A stretch of 64,000 nt of DNA, taken from contig LAPX01000004.1 of assembly GCA_001858525.1 (NCBI GenBank), forward strand, positions 434,001 to 498,000, written 5' to 3'. The notes under the pieces were generated by a model. It made no database searches. It was not told where the DNA came from and saw nothing but the letters and a program-made list of their open reading frames with translations. Position numbers and translations under genes: made by a program. The DNA is from Vampirovibrio chlorellavorus. Lineage in GTDB: Bacteria; Cyanobacteriota; Vampirovibrionia; Vampirovibrionales; Vampirovibrionaceae. Shown here in pieces: positions 41,553 to 48,836 of this stretch; the first letter of the stretch is position 1; the number at the start of each line of letters is the position of its first letter.

Positions 41553-42377
41553 TTAGATGATGGGTGCAGCCAGCTCGGCAATATAGTCTCGTATACTATC
41601 CACGGAGTCGTTTGGATCCAGTTTCTGAATTTTAGCCATCACCGCAGAACCGACAATGACTCCATCGGCACCCAGGGCAATCATGCTTTTCACATGCTCC
41701 CGCTTGGAAATGCCAAAGCCCACGCAGACGGGCAAGTCAGAACACTGGCGCGCTTGAGTCAATAAATTGCCCAGCGCTTGATCGTAGCGTTCTTCCACGC
41801 CGGTAATGCCAAGACGCGAGACCGCGTATAAAAATCCACCGGATTGGGCCGCAATTTTCGGCAGACGCTCCGCAGTGGTGCGGGTGGAAATAATGGACGT
41901 GAGTTGCAAGCCGTAATTCTCTAGAGCCGGTTTGATTTCGGCGATACCTTCCACCGGTAAGTCGGCAATCAGTAGACCGTCGGCTCCGGCTTGGGCAATA
42001 TCCTGACAAAAGCGATCAATGCCCCGAACCAGCACCAGGTTGTAATACACCAATAAACTAATCGGAATATGCGGATATTTTTGCCGAATTTGTTTCAGCA
42101 AATCCAACGCCTGATCCACATCAAAGCCCGCTTCTAAGACCTCTCGACCCGCCTGCTGAATCAGCGGACCATCGGCCACCGGATCACTGAACGCCAGACC
42201 CAGTTCCAGGGCACTGGCCCCACCAGCCACAAAGGCATCAATGGTCTCCATGCATCTTTGGGGGGTCGGCCATCCCAGCAGGGTAAAGGGGATCAGGGCA
42301 TGGCGTTTTTCCTGTTTCAAACGGGCGAACAAGCCATCATAGCGAGACTGGGTTTGCGGTTGTCTAAGCGTGGACAT
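41553..42377 (-). CDS. trpA: Tryptophan synthase alpha chain
   Basis: [32 protein letters not shown]. Confidence 0.96.
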
Positions 42378-43551
42378 GATGGGCTCCTTCCTGTTGGGCC
42401 ATGACTTGGTGTAAATCCTTGTCTCCCCGACCGGAGAGATTGATCAAAATAATCTGCTCCGGCGATCCCTGAGCGGCCAGCGTTTGGGCATAGGCCAGCG
42501 CGTGACAGGATTCCAGGGCGGGTAAAATGCCTTCGGTTTCAGCCAGTGTATGGAAAGCGGCCAGCGACTCAGCGTCCGTGGCAGAGGCATAAGTGGCCTC
42601 CCCAGTGCTTTGCATGTAGGCGTGTTCTGGGCCCACCAAGGGGTAGTCCAGTCCGGCGGAAATGCTGTAAGTTTCTCGGACCTGACCATCTCTGTCTTGC
42701 AAGGCCAAACTCTTCATGCCGTGCAAACAGCCGGGGGTTCCCTTGGCCAATACCGCCCCGTGATGCTCTGTCTCTAAGCCCAGTCCAGCGGGTTCCACCC
42801 CGATCAGTTGGGCGCTGGTATTGCGGAAGCCCTGAAAAATACCGATGGCATTGGACCCCCCGCCCACACAGGCCACTACTTTATCGGGCAACCGGCCAGC
42901 TTGTTCTAAAATTTGTTGATGCGCTTCTTCCCCAATAATCTGTTGAAAAAAGCGAACCAGCGTGGGGTAAGGATGAGGCCCAGCGGCGGTGCCCAGCAGG
43001 TAATAAGTATCCTGCAAGTTGCTGACCCAATCCCGCATGGCTTCATTAATGGCGTCTTTCAGGGTTTTGGAACCCACTTCCACCGCATGCACGGTAGCTC
43101 CCAATAATTTCATGCGAAATACGTTGGGCTGCTGACGCTCCATATCCACGGCGCCCATGTATACTTCGGTCTTGATTCCGAGCAGGGCCCCAGCCATGGC
43201 GGTGGCCACACCGTGTTGGCCCGCACCGGTTTCGGCGATAATCCGGGTTTTGCCCATGCGCTTTGCCAACAAGGCTTGCCCAATGGCATTGTTGGTTTTG
43301 TGAGCACCACCGTGCAGCAGGTCTTCCCGCTTTAAAAAAACGCGGGCGCCATAGAGTTTAGAGAGATTTTTTGCTTCATAGAGGGGTGTGGGGCGCCCGG
43401 CGTAGTGTTTCAGTAAATGATGATATTCCTTTAAAAAGTCAGCGTCCTGGCTGGCCTCTAAAAAGGCGCTTTCCACTTCTTCCAGCGCAGGCACTAAAAG
43501 TTCCGGAACATAAACGCCCCCGAAGGAGCCAAAAAAGCCTAGGGATTGCAT
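42364..43551 (-). CDS. trpB: Tryptophan synthase beta chain
   Basis: [36 protein letters not shown]. Confidence 0.97.
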
Positions 43552-44249
43552 GATGCGTTCTCTCCATGATTGGGTTGGGGTTTAAAATTTTTTACGATGT
43601 GACAAAAGCGTTTCATTTTATCGACGTCTTTTTTTCCGGGCCCTTGCTCCACCCCAGAGGCCACATCGACCCCAGCGGGCTGGAAGGTTTGCAAGGCTTG
43701 TTGAATGTTCTCTGGGGTTAAGCCACCGGCCAACAGGCATGGAAAGTCGGATAAAAAGGATTCCAATATTTCTGAATAAGCGACATCCAAAACGCTTGGA
43801 ATGGCGCTGCCTTTGGGCAGATCCAGCAGTAGGGTTTGCACTTGAGGAACTTCCAAATAAGCTGCCGCTTGGCGGCGGAGCGCAGAGAAATCCAGTTCGG
43901 GTCGTTCTGGCAGTTCTGAATTGAGTAGCAGTGTTTTAATCACAGGTACCGAAATTTGAGCACAGAATGCGGGGCTTTCATTACCATGAAGCTGCACCCG
44001 ATTGATGTTCAGGACTTGAATGTGATGCTCAATTTCAGAGAGCGATTGATTCTGAAAAACGCCCACCACCGTCGTTTCAGGATGAATGACCCGAAGCTGC
44101 CTCATAATCTCTTTGGCCGATTCCACTGATACAAAGCGAGGGGTCTGGGGCACGAAAATCAGGCCCAACCAATTCACGCCTGCCTCAACGGCGGCCATGG
44201 CATCAGCCGGGTTGGTAATCCCGCAAATTTTGATCCGAGGAGAGATCAT
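43539..44249 (-). CDS. trpF: Phosphoribosylanthranilate isomerase
   Basis: [45 protein letters not shown]. Confidence 0.95.
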
Positions 44250-45055
44250 GCCAATAATTCCTGAAGCTTTTTAGCCAGTGCCTCTGGGGTCGGTTCCCTC
44301 ATTAGGGTAGAACCGATTAAAAAACCATCACAGTGGGGTTGCAATCTCAAAATATCCGCCCTGTCTTGAATGCCGCTGGCTGAAATTTTGAGAATGCCCT
44401 CAGGGATCAGTGGGGATAAGCGCTCCGTGGTGGACAGATCCATTTTTAAAGTTTGTAGATTGCGGTTGTTGATAAGCAGAACAGAAGGATTGATTTTCAG
44501 CGCTCGACGCACTTCTTCGGCATCCTGCACTTCAATCAGTGGGGTCATGCCCAGTGTTAAAACCAGTTGATTGAGTTCAGCGAGTTGTACATCGCTCAAT
44601 GCTTTCACGATCAGTAAAACCGCCTGAGCTCCTGCTTGTCGTGCTTCATAGACTTGATAGGGATCGACAATAAAATCTTTGCAAAGGGTGGGGATGGTGA
44701 CTTGATTGCTAACTGATTGCAGCAATTCTAAACTGCCCCCAAAATAGTGGGCATCGGTTAAAACGGAGATGGCCACGCCGTATTGCGCATAAATTGGCAA
44801 TATGGATTCTAAATCCAGCGTTTTTTTAAGAACACCGGCGGATGGCGAAGCCGGTTTGATTTCCAAAATGCAGGCCGGTTTTTGGGTGGCGTTGTGAATG
44901 GGTTGAATAGACCGCTCCAGGGCGTGCGGCTGGGGAAAGGCCTGTACTTGGTTCACCCATTGGTTAAGTGGCCGGTGTTTTTTTCGATCCGCCACTTCTT
45001 CAAGCGTGTGGGCCACGATGGTGCCTAGGACGTTATCAGCAGGCAAACTGTTCAT
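44246..45055 (-). CDS. trpC: Indole-3-glycerol phosphate synthase
   Basis: CILEIKPASPSAGV, VLTDAHYFGGSLELL, LLINNRNLQTLKMDLSTTERLS. Confidence 0.95.
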   Translation of the reverse strand: MNSLPADNVLGTIVAHTLEEVADRKKHRPLNQWVNQVQAFPQPHALERSIQPIHNATQKPACILEIKPASPSAGVLKKTLDLESILPIYAQYGVAISVLTDAHYFGGSLELLQSVSNQVTIPTLCKDFIVDPYQVYEARQAGAQAVLLIVKALSDVQLAELNQLVLTLGMTPLIEVQDAEEVRRALKINPSVLLINNRNLQTLKMDLSTTERLSPLIPEGILKISASGIQDRADILRLQPHCDGFLIGSTLMREPTPEALAKKLQELLA

Positions 45056-46016
45056 TGACCCTCCGGCATTGTTCCAGCGTGTGTAATGCGTTTCCGCTTT
45101 TTAAAATCTGTTTGGCTTCCTGAATGGCTTCCTCCAGCGTGCCGACTTTTTGGGCAATCAACAGGCCTGCACCAGCGTTGAGACAAACCATGTCATAATA
45201 CGGCGATTGATCATCGTCCCCTTGAAGCAGCCGCATGAAAATTTTTAAATTCTCAGCAGGACTATGCCCGTTTTGTGGCAGTTCACGGTGTCCATTTTTA
45301 GACAGGAAATCAGACGGAGAAATGGTTATTTCCGCACAGCGGTTGTTTTCCAGTTGTAACACCTGAGTGTTGCCGTGGATATCAATTTCATCCAAACCCG
45401 ATTCCGCATGCACGATCCAGCCGCGTTCGCAGGTGCCAGTGTTAATCAAATGGTCGGCCATCCGTTGTTGCATGACGGGGTGAGAAACACCCAGCAGTCG
45501 GTATGCGGGTTTCACTGGATTGAGCAAGGGGCCCAAAAAATTAAACAGGGTGCGTATTTTCAAGGTGCGACGCAACTGGTTAAACCCTGCCAGTTGTGGA
45601 TAACATTGCGGGGCGAATAGAAAAATCAGACCGCATTGTGCCAGCGCTTCCGGGATGCGATGCAAGTCCATCCGTTCGGAAAAACCGAGCTGAGCCAATA
45701 GATCAAAACTGCCACTGGCACTGCTAAAGCCCCGATTTCCAAATTTAACCACGGGAATCCCGGCTGCTGCTAAAATAAAGGCTACCGTGGTGGAGGTATT
45801 AAAATGGGGCAAGCCACTGCCACCGGTGCCGCAGCAATCCATGACCGGCATTGGGGGTAAAGCCAACGGTTCGGCGGTTTCCTGCAGGCAGGCCAAGGCA
45901 TCCGAAAACAGGGCTGGGGTAATGCGTTCCGGGGTCAGTTGGCCCAGTAACGCAAGCGTTTCCGCTTCGTTGTATTCCAGATGAATGAGCTGGCGCAGTT
46001 GATCACGGCTTAGCAT
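45036..46016 (-). CDS. trpD: Anthranilate phosphoribosyltransferase
   Basis: DCCGTGGSGLPHFNTSTTVAFILAAAGIPVVKFGNRGFSS. Confidence 0.95.
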   Translation of the reverse strand: MLSRDQLRQLIHLEYNEAETLALLGQLTPERITPALFSDALACLQETAEPLALPPMPVMDCCGTGGSGLPHFNTSTTVAFILAAAGIPVVKFGNRGFSSASGSFDLLAQLGFSERMDLHRIPEALAQCGLIFLFAPQCYPQLAGFNQLRRTLKIRTLFNFLGPLLNPVKPAYRLLGVSHPVMQQRMADHLINTGTCERGWIVHAESGLDEIDIHGNTQVLQLENNRCAEITISPSDFLSKNGHRELPQNGHSPAENLKIFMRLLQGDDDQSPYYDMVCLNAGAGLLIAQKVGTLEEAIQEAKQILKSGNALHTLEQCRRVNEQFAC

Positions 46017-46612
46017 TGGACTAGAAAATTCCTTAAAATCTGTTTTCCCTGCGGGGTACCAATGGATTCCGGGTGAAACTGGATGCCATACAAGGGCTGT
46101 GTGCGGTGCTGCATGGCCATGGGAATGTTACTTTCCGCATCGCGGACGGTAATTTCCAAATCCGAAGGCAAGGTCTTTTCATCCACCAGTAGGGAGTGAT
46201 AGCGCATGGCCTCAAACGTGGGGGGTAGACCCCCAAACAAAGGACTGGCAACCACTTGGCGCATGGGGCGGCTTTCCCCGTGTACGATTTCAGGTGCGGC
46301 TATGACGCCACCCCCCAAATAATGGGCCATGCCCTGATGCCCCAGACAGACACCCAGAACCGGGCAATTCAGTTCCGCTTGTTTTTGGATAATCTCGGCA
46401 CAAATGCCAAAATCCGAGGGCTCTGCGGGGTGGCCGGGGCCGGGGGACAGGATGATTCGCTGTGGTTTTTTAGCCAGCAAGGTTTGGAAATCAACGCCAT
46501 CATTTCGGTAGACTTCCACCGGGGCTTCCGTTTCCGCTTGCAGCATCTGGTATAAATTGAAGGTGAAGGAATCGTAATTATCAATAATCACGACGGGTTG
46601 TGCTGCGGGCAT
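46010..46612 (-). CDS. trpG: Anthranilate synthase component II (glutamine amidotransferase)
   Basis: DNYDSFTFNLYQ, LSPGPGHP, PVLGVCLGHQ, GIQFHPESIGTPQGK. Confidence 0.96.
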   Translation of the reverse strand: MPAAQPVVIIDNYDSFTFNLYQMLQAETEAPVEVYRNDGVDFQTLLAKKPQRIILSPGPGHPAEPSDFGICAEIIQKQAELNCPVLGVCLGHQGMAHYLGGGVIAAPEIVHGESRPMRQVVASPLFGGLPPTFEAMRYHSLLVDEKTLPSDLEITVRDAESNIPMAMQHRTQPLYGIQFHPESIGTPQGKQILRNFLVQC

Positions 46613-48047
46613 CGGCGTCCATCCTTTCCGCCATCAGAATGGCTTTAATCATACTTTTGGCCTTGTTGCGGGTTTCTTCGTATTCGGCTTCAGGCACTGA
46701 GTGATGCACAATGCCAGCCCCCGCCTGAATATGGGCGGTATTATCCTGAATGAGGGCGGAACGAATGGCGATGGCGCCATCGGCGTTACCACTGGCATCA
46801 ATGTAGCCCACCATACCCGAGTACACGCCCCGTTGCTCGGGTTCCAGTTTGGCCAGCAGTTGCATGGCCCGAATTTTGGGAGCGCCGCTCACGGTGCCTC
46901 GGGGGAAGCAGCTTCTTAAAGCGTCATACCCGCTCAGGCCTTCCCGGAGTTTACCGTTAATTTCCGTGGCCAGGTGCATGACATGGGTGTATCGGAGGAT
47001 TTTGGCGATTTCTCCCACTTCAATGCTGCCTGGCTGGCAAATACGACCTAAATCGTTACGACCCAGATCCACCAGCATGCGATGCTCGGCCATTTCCTTG
47101 CGGCAGGCCCGAAGCTCTTCAGCCAAACTGATGTCATCCGCTTCCGACTTGCCCCGGGGGCGGGTACCCGCCAAGGCCTTTAAAGTCACCTGTCCGTTGC
47201 GACAGCGCACAAAGGTTTCCGGGGAGGAGCCCAGATAGACGAACTCTGGAAATTTGAGGTAATACGCGTAGGGGGAGGGATTGATGGCGGTCACCGTGCG
47301 GTAAATATCCAGCGTGCGGCACTGTACCGGTAACGAGAAGCGCTGGGCCAGTACGATCTGGAAAATTTGACCTTCCACAATCCACTGCTTGGCCTGATGG
47401 ATGGCGCTCATAAAATCCGCTTTGGGGGTAGCGTAATGGACCGTGTCAAAAACCTGTTCATCGGAAATTTGGGGTAGGGTGAGCAAGTGGAGTTCCTGTG
47501 TCTGTTGATTCAGGGCCTGCTGCACGGTTTGGAACAGCCGATGGGCTTCTGCGGCTTCCCGGTGAGAGACCAGATGAATACGGCGATATAGGTGATCAAA
47601 AATAATCACTGAATCGTAAAGCCCCATGTACACATCGGGCACCTTCAATACGTCTTCGGCGGCCTGAGGAATCCGTTCAAAATACTGGGTGGTGCCATAG
47701 CCCAAATAACCCACCCACCCGGCGGTCAAGGGCAAATCAGTGTATTCGGGGGGCAGGGCATCCAGCGGCGGCAAGGTTTCCTGTTGCAGGGATCGTAAAC
47801 GGCCCATGGGGTCGGTGCAGGTTTCCAGCCTTTCGGTGCCTTCCCGATGGTTTTGAATAATGGCCGCTCCGTTTTTCAAGCGAAAACTGAGCACGGCATC
47901 CAGCCCGATGATGGAGAAGCGGCCCACCTGCCGGTCCCCGTCGGTACTTTCCAGCAGAAACATCAGGGGAAAGGAGGATTGCAGGCGGTGAAACAGGGAC
48001 ACGGGTGTCTCTGTGTCCGAGAGGTAACTTTGGATGGTCAGGGGCAT
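46581..48047 (-). CDS. trpE: Anthranilate synthase component I
   Basis: SSPETFVRCRNGQVTLKALAGTRPRG, FPRGTVSGAPKIRAMQLL. Confidence 0.96.
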   Translation of the reverse strand: MPLTIQSYLSDTETPVSLFHRLQSSFPLMFLLESTDGDRQVGRFSIIGLDAVLSFRLKNGAAIIQNHREGTERLETCTDPMGRLRSLQQETLPPLDALPPEYTDLPLTAGWVGYLGYGTTQYFERIPQAAEDVLKVPDVYMGLYDSVIIFDHLYRRIHLVSHREAAEAHRLFQTVQQALNQQTQELHLLTLPQISDEQVFDTVHYATPKADFMSAIHQAKQWIVEGQIFQIVLAQRFSLPVQCRTLDIYRTVTAINPSPYAYYLKFPEFVYLGSSPETFVRCRNGQVTLKALAGTRPRGKSEADDISLAEELRACRKEMAEHRMLVDLGRNDLGRICQPGSIEVGEIAKILRYTHVMHLATEINGKLREGLSGYDALRSCFPRGTVSGAPKIRAMQLLAKLEPEQRGVYSGMVGYIDASGNADGAIAIRSALIQDNTAHIQAGAGIVHHSVPEAEYEETRNKAKSMIKAILMAERMDADARSTTRRDY

Positions 48048-48089: not shown

Positions 48090-48111
48090 AAAAAACAGAC
48101 CCGTGGGCCTG
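48090..48111 (-). terminator. Candidate trp operon attenuator terminator
   Basis: Minus strand CAGGCC-CACG-GGTCTG-TTTTTT between leader peptide and trpE. Confidence 0.8.
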
Positions 48112-48148
48112 CTTTCTGGAAATCTGGAGTCAATTACGAGCAATGCTT

Positions 48149-48241
48149 TCAAGGGTAATCAATCCAGCCCGACAGGCCAGTAAGCGGTTGGTTCCACCAC
48201 CACTGCTGCAATTGGGTTGGCTGTGTTGTGATTGAAAGCAT
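48149..48241 (-). CDS. trpL: Candidate Trp leader peptide (30 aa)
   Basis: Minus-strand ORF ATG...TGA: MLSITTQPTQLQQWWWNQPLTGLSGWIDYP; three tandem Trp codons plus a fourth, upstream of attenuator and trpE. Confidence 0.8.
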   Translation of the reverse strand: MLSITTQPTQLQQWWWNQPLTGLSGWIDYP

Positions 48242-48276: not shown

Positions 48277-48307
48277 ATCATAGCCGCTCGTGGGGCTGCT
48301 TTGTCAA
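48277..48307 (-). promoter_or_regulatory. Candidate trp operon promoter
   Basis: Minus strand TTGACA - 19 nt - TATGAT, ~36 nt before leader ATG. Confidence 0.5.
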
Positions 48308-48401
48308 GCAATTATTTGTAATGCCCGGCAGTCCCTATCAAAAACGTCCACCCATAGTGGGCAGACGCTTTGAGAATGGGTGTTGTAAAGGGAGGCGCTG
48401 G

Positions 48402-48836
48402 TTACTTGCGCATCATTTTACGCACTTCTCCAATATGACTTTCCTCTTCGGCCACCATACGGCGGGCGAACTCTTCAAACATCACGGATTTGTCCTTCAC
48501 CAAATCCAGAAGCTCTTGGTAAAGCTGCATTTGTCTGGATTCATGGGTCAGGGATTCTTCCAGAATGCTGAAGATATCGTGCTTGTGGGTTTCCAGCAGT
48601 TGGCCAATGCCCAGGGACGGGTGTTCTCCCAAATGGGTGATCAGCTCGCCGCTTTCCTGGGCGTGCAATAAGGATTCGCTGGCCTGACTTTTAAGCCAGG
48701 AGGTAATGGGAATACGGTTGGGGCCAAAGACCATAAACGAGTAGTGGGTATAACGCACCACACCGGCCAATTCCATTTCCACAATGCGGTTTAGGGTATC
48801 CACGACCTTGGGAATATCGAATGTATAGTCCGCCAT
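48402..48836 (-). CDS. Bacterioferritin/ferritin-like di-iron protein
   Basis: MELAGVVRYTHYSF, ASESLLHAQESGELI, RRMVAEEESHIGEV. Confidence 0.85.
   Translation of the reverse strand: MADYTFDIPKVVDTLNRIVEMELAGVVRYTHYSFMVFGPNRIPITSWLKSQASESLLHAQESGELITHLGEHPSLGIGQLLETHKHDIFSILEESLTHESRQMQLYQELLDLVKDKSVMFEEFARRMVAEEESHIGEVRKMMRK

Follow-up and report, generated by a model that had tools for sequence, protein, structure and literature searches.

Attenuation by leader peptides was known only from the Proteobacteria and Actinobacteria until a survey published in 2010 added the bacilli, with his leader peptides in front of hisS and hisZ, as a new group (PMC2965389). For the cyanobacteria, a survey of leader genes from 2016 found no reliable data on attenuation (PMC4833913). 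The locus described here, which lies in front of the trpEGDCFBA operon of Vampirovibrio, the cyanobacterial sister lineage referred to in a preliminary description of this DNA, carries a genuine conserved trp attenuator that makes use of the known mechanism, in a lineage without a documented case in the literature covered. We found no paper that joins Melainabacteria, attenuation and leader peptide; subscription papers and preprints were largely outside the scope of this search, and we do not assert priority. The locus shares with the E. coli trpL-trpE region the tandem Trp codons, the alternative 1:2, 2:3 and 3:4 pairings and the computed on/off pattern, and in both organisms segment 2 follows the Trp codons at roughly the distance of a ribosome footprint (14 nt in E. 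coli and 18 nt in Vampirovibrio). It differs from E. coli trpL in that the leader has 30 rather than 14 codons, with three tandem Trp codons and a fourth one, and from E. coli also in its long apical antiterminator helix, the absence of a detectable TrpR from the genome and the lack of a match to any Rfam family. The trp attenuators of Corynebacterium and Streptomyces (PMC1262725), likened here by their description, also have a double or triple UGG and a GC-rich terminator with a U tract 5' of the trp genes, but belong to a different phylum. The his leader peptides of the bacilli are similar in being a case of leader-peptide attenuation outside the two classical phyla, but concern a different amino acid and different genes. 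Finally, trpL of Sinorhizobium meliloti is also a Trp leader-peptide attenuator; its leader peptide peTrpL, however, is reported to have functions in trans as well (PMC7298713), which are improbable for the Vampirovibrio leader.

The window, i. e. the whole stretch of 64,000 nucleotides that was analysed, belongs to a genome of 3.03 Mb, in which the locus is located on contig C23. The encoded TrpE is 96% identical to that of a named Vampirovibrio MAG and 64% identical to that of a MAG labelled V. chlorellavorus. The genes 3' of the leader make tryptophan: they form a complete operon of overlapping genes in the order trpE-G-D-C-F-B-A, which extends from 48047 to 41553 on the minus strand.

46581..48047, minus strand: trpE, anthranilate synthase component I (Pfam PF00425, 6.5e-90; PF04715, 1.7e-29)
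46010..46612, minus strand: trpG, glutamine amidotransferase subunit (PF00117, 2e-51)
45036..46016, minus strand: trpD (PF00591, 1.8e-64)
44246..45055, minus strand: trpC (PF00218, 5.6e-74)
43539..44249, minus strand: trpF (PF00697, 2e-41)
42364..43551, minus strand: trpB (by sequence and operon position)
41553..42377, minus strand: trpA (by sequence and operon position)

A ferritin-like gene (48402-48836) is located 5' of the trp leader. Just past this gene, at about 48348-48372 of the minus strand, there is a terminator-like hairpin with a longer stem (AGCGTCTGCCCA..TGGGTGGACGTT) that parts the gene from the trp leader. The genome encodes a second chorismate-binding homologue (L002, C23:301913-303094) that is 35% identical to TrpE and for which no leader was found; its product is perhaps a PabB-type enzyme. 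No relatives of TrpE were found in viral contigs.

The elements between the ferritin-like gene and trpE are, in the direction of transcription:

48302..48307, minus strand: putative -35 box TTGACA (from the sequence; invariant in three genomes)
48277..48282, minus strand: putative -10 box TATGAT (from the sequence; invariant in three genomes)
48149..48241, minus strand: leader peptide ORF MLSITTQPTQLQQWWWNQPLTGLSGWIDYP, 30 codons with 4 Trp (read from the sequence; counterparts in relatives)
48168..48216, minus strand: 1:2 (protector) hairpin; its 5' arm contains the Trp codons and its 3' arm the first part of segment 2 (predicted MFE structure)
48194..48202, minus strand: three tandem Trp codons W14-W16, the regulatory codons (sequence)
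48172..48178, minus strand: segment 2 core GGCCTGT, the antiterminator 5' arm (sequence and folding)
48155..48167, minus strand: apical antiterminator arm CTGGATTGATTAC, covered by a ribosome positioned at the stop codon (folding and sequence)
48124..48137, minus strand: apical antiterminator arm GTAATTGACTCCAG (folding and sequence; invariant in three genomes)
48106..48117, minus strand: segment 3, the terminator 5' arm AGAAAGCAGGCC (terminator scan, folding and sequence)
48090..48101, minus strand: segment 4, the terminator 3' arm GGTCTG with the U tract (terminator scan, folding and sequence)

The leader ORF extends from an ATG at 48241 to a TGA at 48151-48149 and has Trp codons at positions 14-16 and 26. 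On direct reading, the coordinates of the ORF, the WWW motif, the terminator and the GGCCTG motif (48178-48173, minus strand) given in the preliminary description all proved to be correct. No clear Shine-Dalgarno sequence was seen 5' of the leader ATG in the sequence of the locus, and the putative promoter is absent from the output of a consensus scan because its -35 and -10 boxes are spaced by 19 nt. The intrinsic terminator, AGAAAGCAGGCC-CACG-GGTCTGTTTTTT (48117-48090, minus strand), was previously described as the hairpin CAGGCC-CACG-GGTCTG; this hairpin is indeed present, but it is stronger than had been stated, with 12 pairs in the terminator scan, as the GC core with its one G-U pair is lengthened by an AGAAAG:TTTTTT run. 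The 3:4 hairpin ends 42 nt 5' of the trpE start, the start region being outside the hairpin. Within segment 3, GCAGGCC doubles as the 3' arm of the antiterminator. The proposed antiterminator helix GGCCTG:CAGGCC exists as well, but the earlier account had overlooked the apical helix CTGGATTGATTAC:GTAATTGACTCCAG that makes it longer. Moreover, the account had overlooked the 1:2 hairpin, which includes the Trp codons and keeps segment 2 sequestered in the absence of a stalled ribosome; this hairpin is the MFE prediction for the free RNA as well as for the RNA with a ribosome that has reached the stop codon. Segment 2 is located 18 nt past the second Trp codon. In a mechanical scan, the 64-kb window yielded 19 Trp-clustered small ORFs, four of which are followed by a terminator-like hairpin, and the hairpin of the trp leader is the strongest of these four (-14.7 kcal/mol vs -9.6 kcal/mol for the next one). 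About 0.25 matches combining a Trp cluster and a terminator are expected per Markov-shuffled window; since relatives have the element in the same position, it is not a product of chance.

The locus is, with high confidence, a classical ribosome-mediated transcription attenuator of trpEGDCFBA. In such a mechanism, the ribosome would follow the RNA polymerase while translating the 30-codon leader ORF. If charged tRNA-Trp is plentiful, the ribosome would pass the three UGG codons and reach the stop codon; there, its footprint would disrupt the apical antiterminator and the upstream 1:2 hairpin would take up segment 2, so that segment 3 can pair with segment 4 and transcription terminates 5' of trpE. 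If charged tRNA-Trp is scarce, the ribosome would stall at the UGG codons and mask the 1:2 hairpin, and segment 2, one footprint downstream, would pair with segment 3 before segment 4 has been made, resulting in read-through into trpE. We infer the translation of the leader, the stalling, the premature termination in vivo and the promoter from features that were computed: the ORF, both hairpins and their competition, the footprint spacing, the conservation and the compensatory covariation.

The competition between the hairpins was analysed by thermodynamic folding with the ribosome modelled as a simple block. Transcripts ending before segment 4 were used because equilibrium folding of the complete leader always favours the terminator and does not tell the states apart. 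When the RNA is blocked by a ribosome as far as the second or third UGG, the 2:3 antiterminator has a probability of 0.99; this value drops to 0.07 if no ribosome is present and to 0.01 if one is located at the stop codon. The low value at the stop codon results from the 1:2 hairpin (48216-48168) holding segment 2 and from the footprint covering the apical helix. When the trp leader of an annotated E. coli genome was computed in the same way, the values were 0.99 in the stalled, 0.13 in the free and 0.00 in the stop-codon state. Folding under these constraints thus predicts the standard three-way switch. The protector hairpin is predicted in the window and in several relatives, but not at two loci (L006 and L012), for which the antiterminator is predicted even when the ribosome has reached the stop codon; the off state of these two loci is not explained by the model.

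A Trp-clustered leader ORF with a terminator 5' of trpE is present in all five Vampirovibrio genomes, and the leader ORF is conserved in relatives, contrary to one of the findings that would have refuted attenuation according to the preliminary description. In family f4, which comprises Obscuribacter and other Melainabacteria MAGs, 27 of the 28 sequences have the leader ORF and 25 of 28 also have the terminator under a strict rule. The element was also found in two further relatives of Vampirovibrio, G006 (family f1, with WRW) and G010 (family f2); in the latter, the leader precedes a DAHP-synthase-like gene, named from a reading of its sequence, that is itself followed by trpE. Across the relatives, the Trp motifs are WWW, WWRW, WWLW or WRW. 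Both genomes of family f16, which is assigned to a different class within the phylum and lacks PsaA and PsaB, have the element as well (WRWWW). The element was not found at the four trpE loci of family f3 or in G051, although these relatives have a related TrpE, nor at the 18 loci of families f5, f7, f8, f12 and f13. Among the photosynthetic lineages, none of 48 trpE loci has it, except for one evident chance match: at this locus (L127), the only Trp-doublet ORF with a hairpin is a long hydrophobic frame. Other Trp-doublet ORFs in photosynthetic genomes were likewise attributed to chance. In a TrpE tree, all sequences of families f1, f2, f3 and f4 form one clade (support 100/99) apart from those of the photosynthetic lineages and of f5, f7 and f8, and the f16 sequences are placed on a long branch of their own. 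This pattern would fit an element that arose once in the f1-f4 clade and was lost in f3 and G051, the f16 element being either separate or much diverged. Three trpE loci of family f6, genus g74 (L061, L063 and L139), have a conserved leader ending in ..WAWCPV.., in which segment 2 starts only 3 nt past the Trp codons, and a clear terminator is present only in L061; judged by these sequences, the standard attenuator geometry does not fit the f6 leaders.

In the three closest genomes, hardly any variation is seen between the Trp codons and the end of the U tract, in contrast to the variable flanks. Among the Vampirovibrio species, the leader peptide is poorly conserved outside the Trp residues and the pairing segments. 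A hairpin followed by T-rich sequence is present in all 36 retrieved elements (for L032, the terminator arm was chosen by hand, as the automatic choice was poor). Covariance of leader and terminator, suggested earlier as a check, was indeed observed: summed over 22 genus-level groups, the segment-2:segment-3 duplex energy is -400 kcal/mol for the own pairs vs -319 kcal/mol (sd 12.6) for permuted pairs, and none of 20,000 permutations was as good. In a version of the test that considers contiguous helices, none of 5,000 permutations reached the own pairing. It is the pooled permutation that is decisive, since at several individual loci (e. g. L005 and L050) the own pairing is no better than pairing with other genera. 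Changes on both sides of the longest uninterrupted helices are seen among GGCCTGT:GCAGGCC in the window, CGGGTAAG:CTTACCCG, GATAGGCC:GGCCTGTC, GGTAAGC:GCTTACC, GGCAAGC:GCTTGCT, GGTGA:TCACC and CAGTGGC:GCCACTG. The antiterminator that competes for the 5' arm of the terminator is thus maintained by covariation. Moreover, the distance from the second Trp codon to the start of segment 2 is 14-22 nt in 90% of 21 lineages, vs 45% of mismatched and 18% of shuffled pairs, which is what a geometry imposed by the stalled ribosome would produce.

These data bear on the other explanations that might be considered for the locus. As the ferritin-like gene is located upstream and the hairpin alone makes a strong terminator, this terminator might be constitutive, serving the ferritin-like gene or a fixed down-regulation of trpE, with the Trp-rich ORF being incidental. 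However, closer to its stop codon, the ferritin-like gene is followed by a terminator-like hairpin of its own (48360-48348), and the Trp ORF, the antiterminator covariation and the footprint spacing are conserved over the 22 genus-level groups, making a constitutive terminator very improbable. We are just as sceptical of translational attenuation, in which the alternative structures would gate the ribosome-binding site of trpE: leader-controlled translation does exist in other systems, but the retrieved elements have a U tract after the 3:4 hairpin, and in the window this hairpin ends well before the trpE start.

T-box, TRAP and TrpR are well-known regulators of trp genes, and T-box or TRAP control had been named earlier as an alternative to attenuation. 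Yet a search of 39 genomes of the class, including that of the window, revealed neither these two (RF00230 and PF02081) nor TrpR (PF01371), even though they were detected in control genomes, and an Rfam scan around the locus gave no family match at E values up to 5, including the trp leader and T-box families. Control of the operon by any of the three can therefore be regarded as next to excluded, and if a Trp-binding regulator acted at this locus, it would have to come from a family not known so far. Finally, the main or an additional output of the locus might be exerted in trans by the released leader RNA or peptide, since attenuation would set free a short RNA and peTrpL of S. meliloti is reported to act in trans (PMC7298713). 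As the peptide is poorly conserved outside the Trp residues and pairing segments, and conservation tracks the RNA pairing rather than the peptide, such an output is improbable, although less so than the other explanations.

Leader attenuators are widespread in the lineage, probably also at ilv and his genes, a point that the preliminary description had overlooked; our survey for them covered four gene families. In Vampirovibrio and G006, ilvB is preceded by leaders such as MNILNSVVIILVVILSGPAGGI that are rich in Ile, Leu and Val and followed by a terminator with a 5' arm (AACCGCCGGCCC) complementary to the leader, suggesting a probable ilv attenuator. These leaders were identified at L177 (upstream of ilvB on contig C24 of the genome studied here), L178, L179, L180 and L181. 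At L177, and also at L178, L179 and L181, a second conserved, Val/Leu-rich ORF (MTT..LLNRVVVLLLGTPPTVV..) is located between the terminator and ilvB, and its stop codon overlaps the ilvB start; this ORF is perhaps a second leader or serves translational coupling. Three hisG genes of related genomes (L207 in G006, L208 in G047 and L209 in G042) have leaders with four to six tandem His residues (HPHHHHHRH, HGHHHHHHS and HRHHHH, respectively) followed by terminators; hisG gave no match in the genome of the window. A leuA-like gene of G047 (L161) is preceded by the Leu-rich leader MQMNLATALLLSLGLDLGNLLLSEIT and a terminator, and leuA may thus possibly have a matching leader in this lineage, too. 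No Phe-rich leader was found in front of prephenate dehydratase genes.

The covariation places leader-peptide attenuation in the Cyanobacteriota, in clades that lack photosynthesis genes. We consider it reasonably likely that this attenuation is a general and old strategy of the non-photosynthetic Cyanobacteriota, used for trp, ilv, his and perhaps leu genes in at least two classes, and that it is rare or absent at the trpE genes of the photosynthetic class. If this is the case, transcription and translation would be tightly coupled in the non-photosynthetic Cyanobacteriota, and the mechanism would have been gained or lost within the phylum. From sequence alone, the elements provide a regulatory annotation for trp, ilv and his operons in bacteria most of which are uncultured and one of which preys on Chlorella, and the coupling of transcription and translation in this lineage becomes directly testable.
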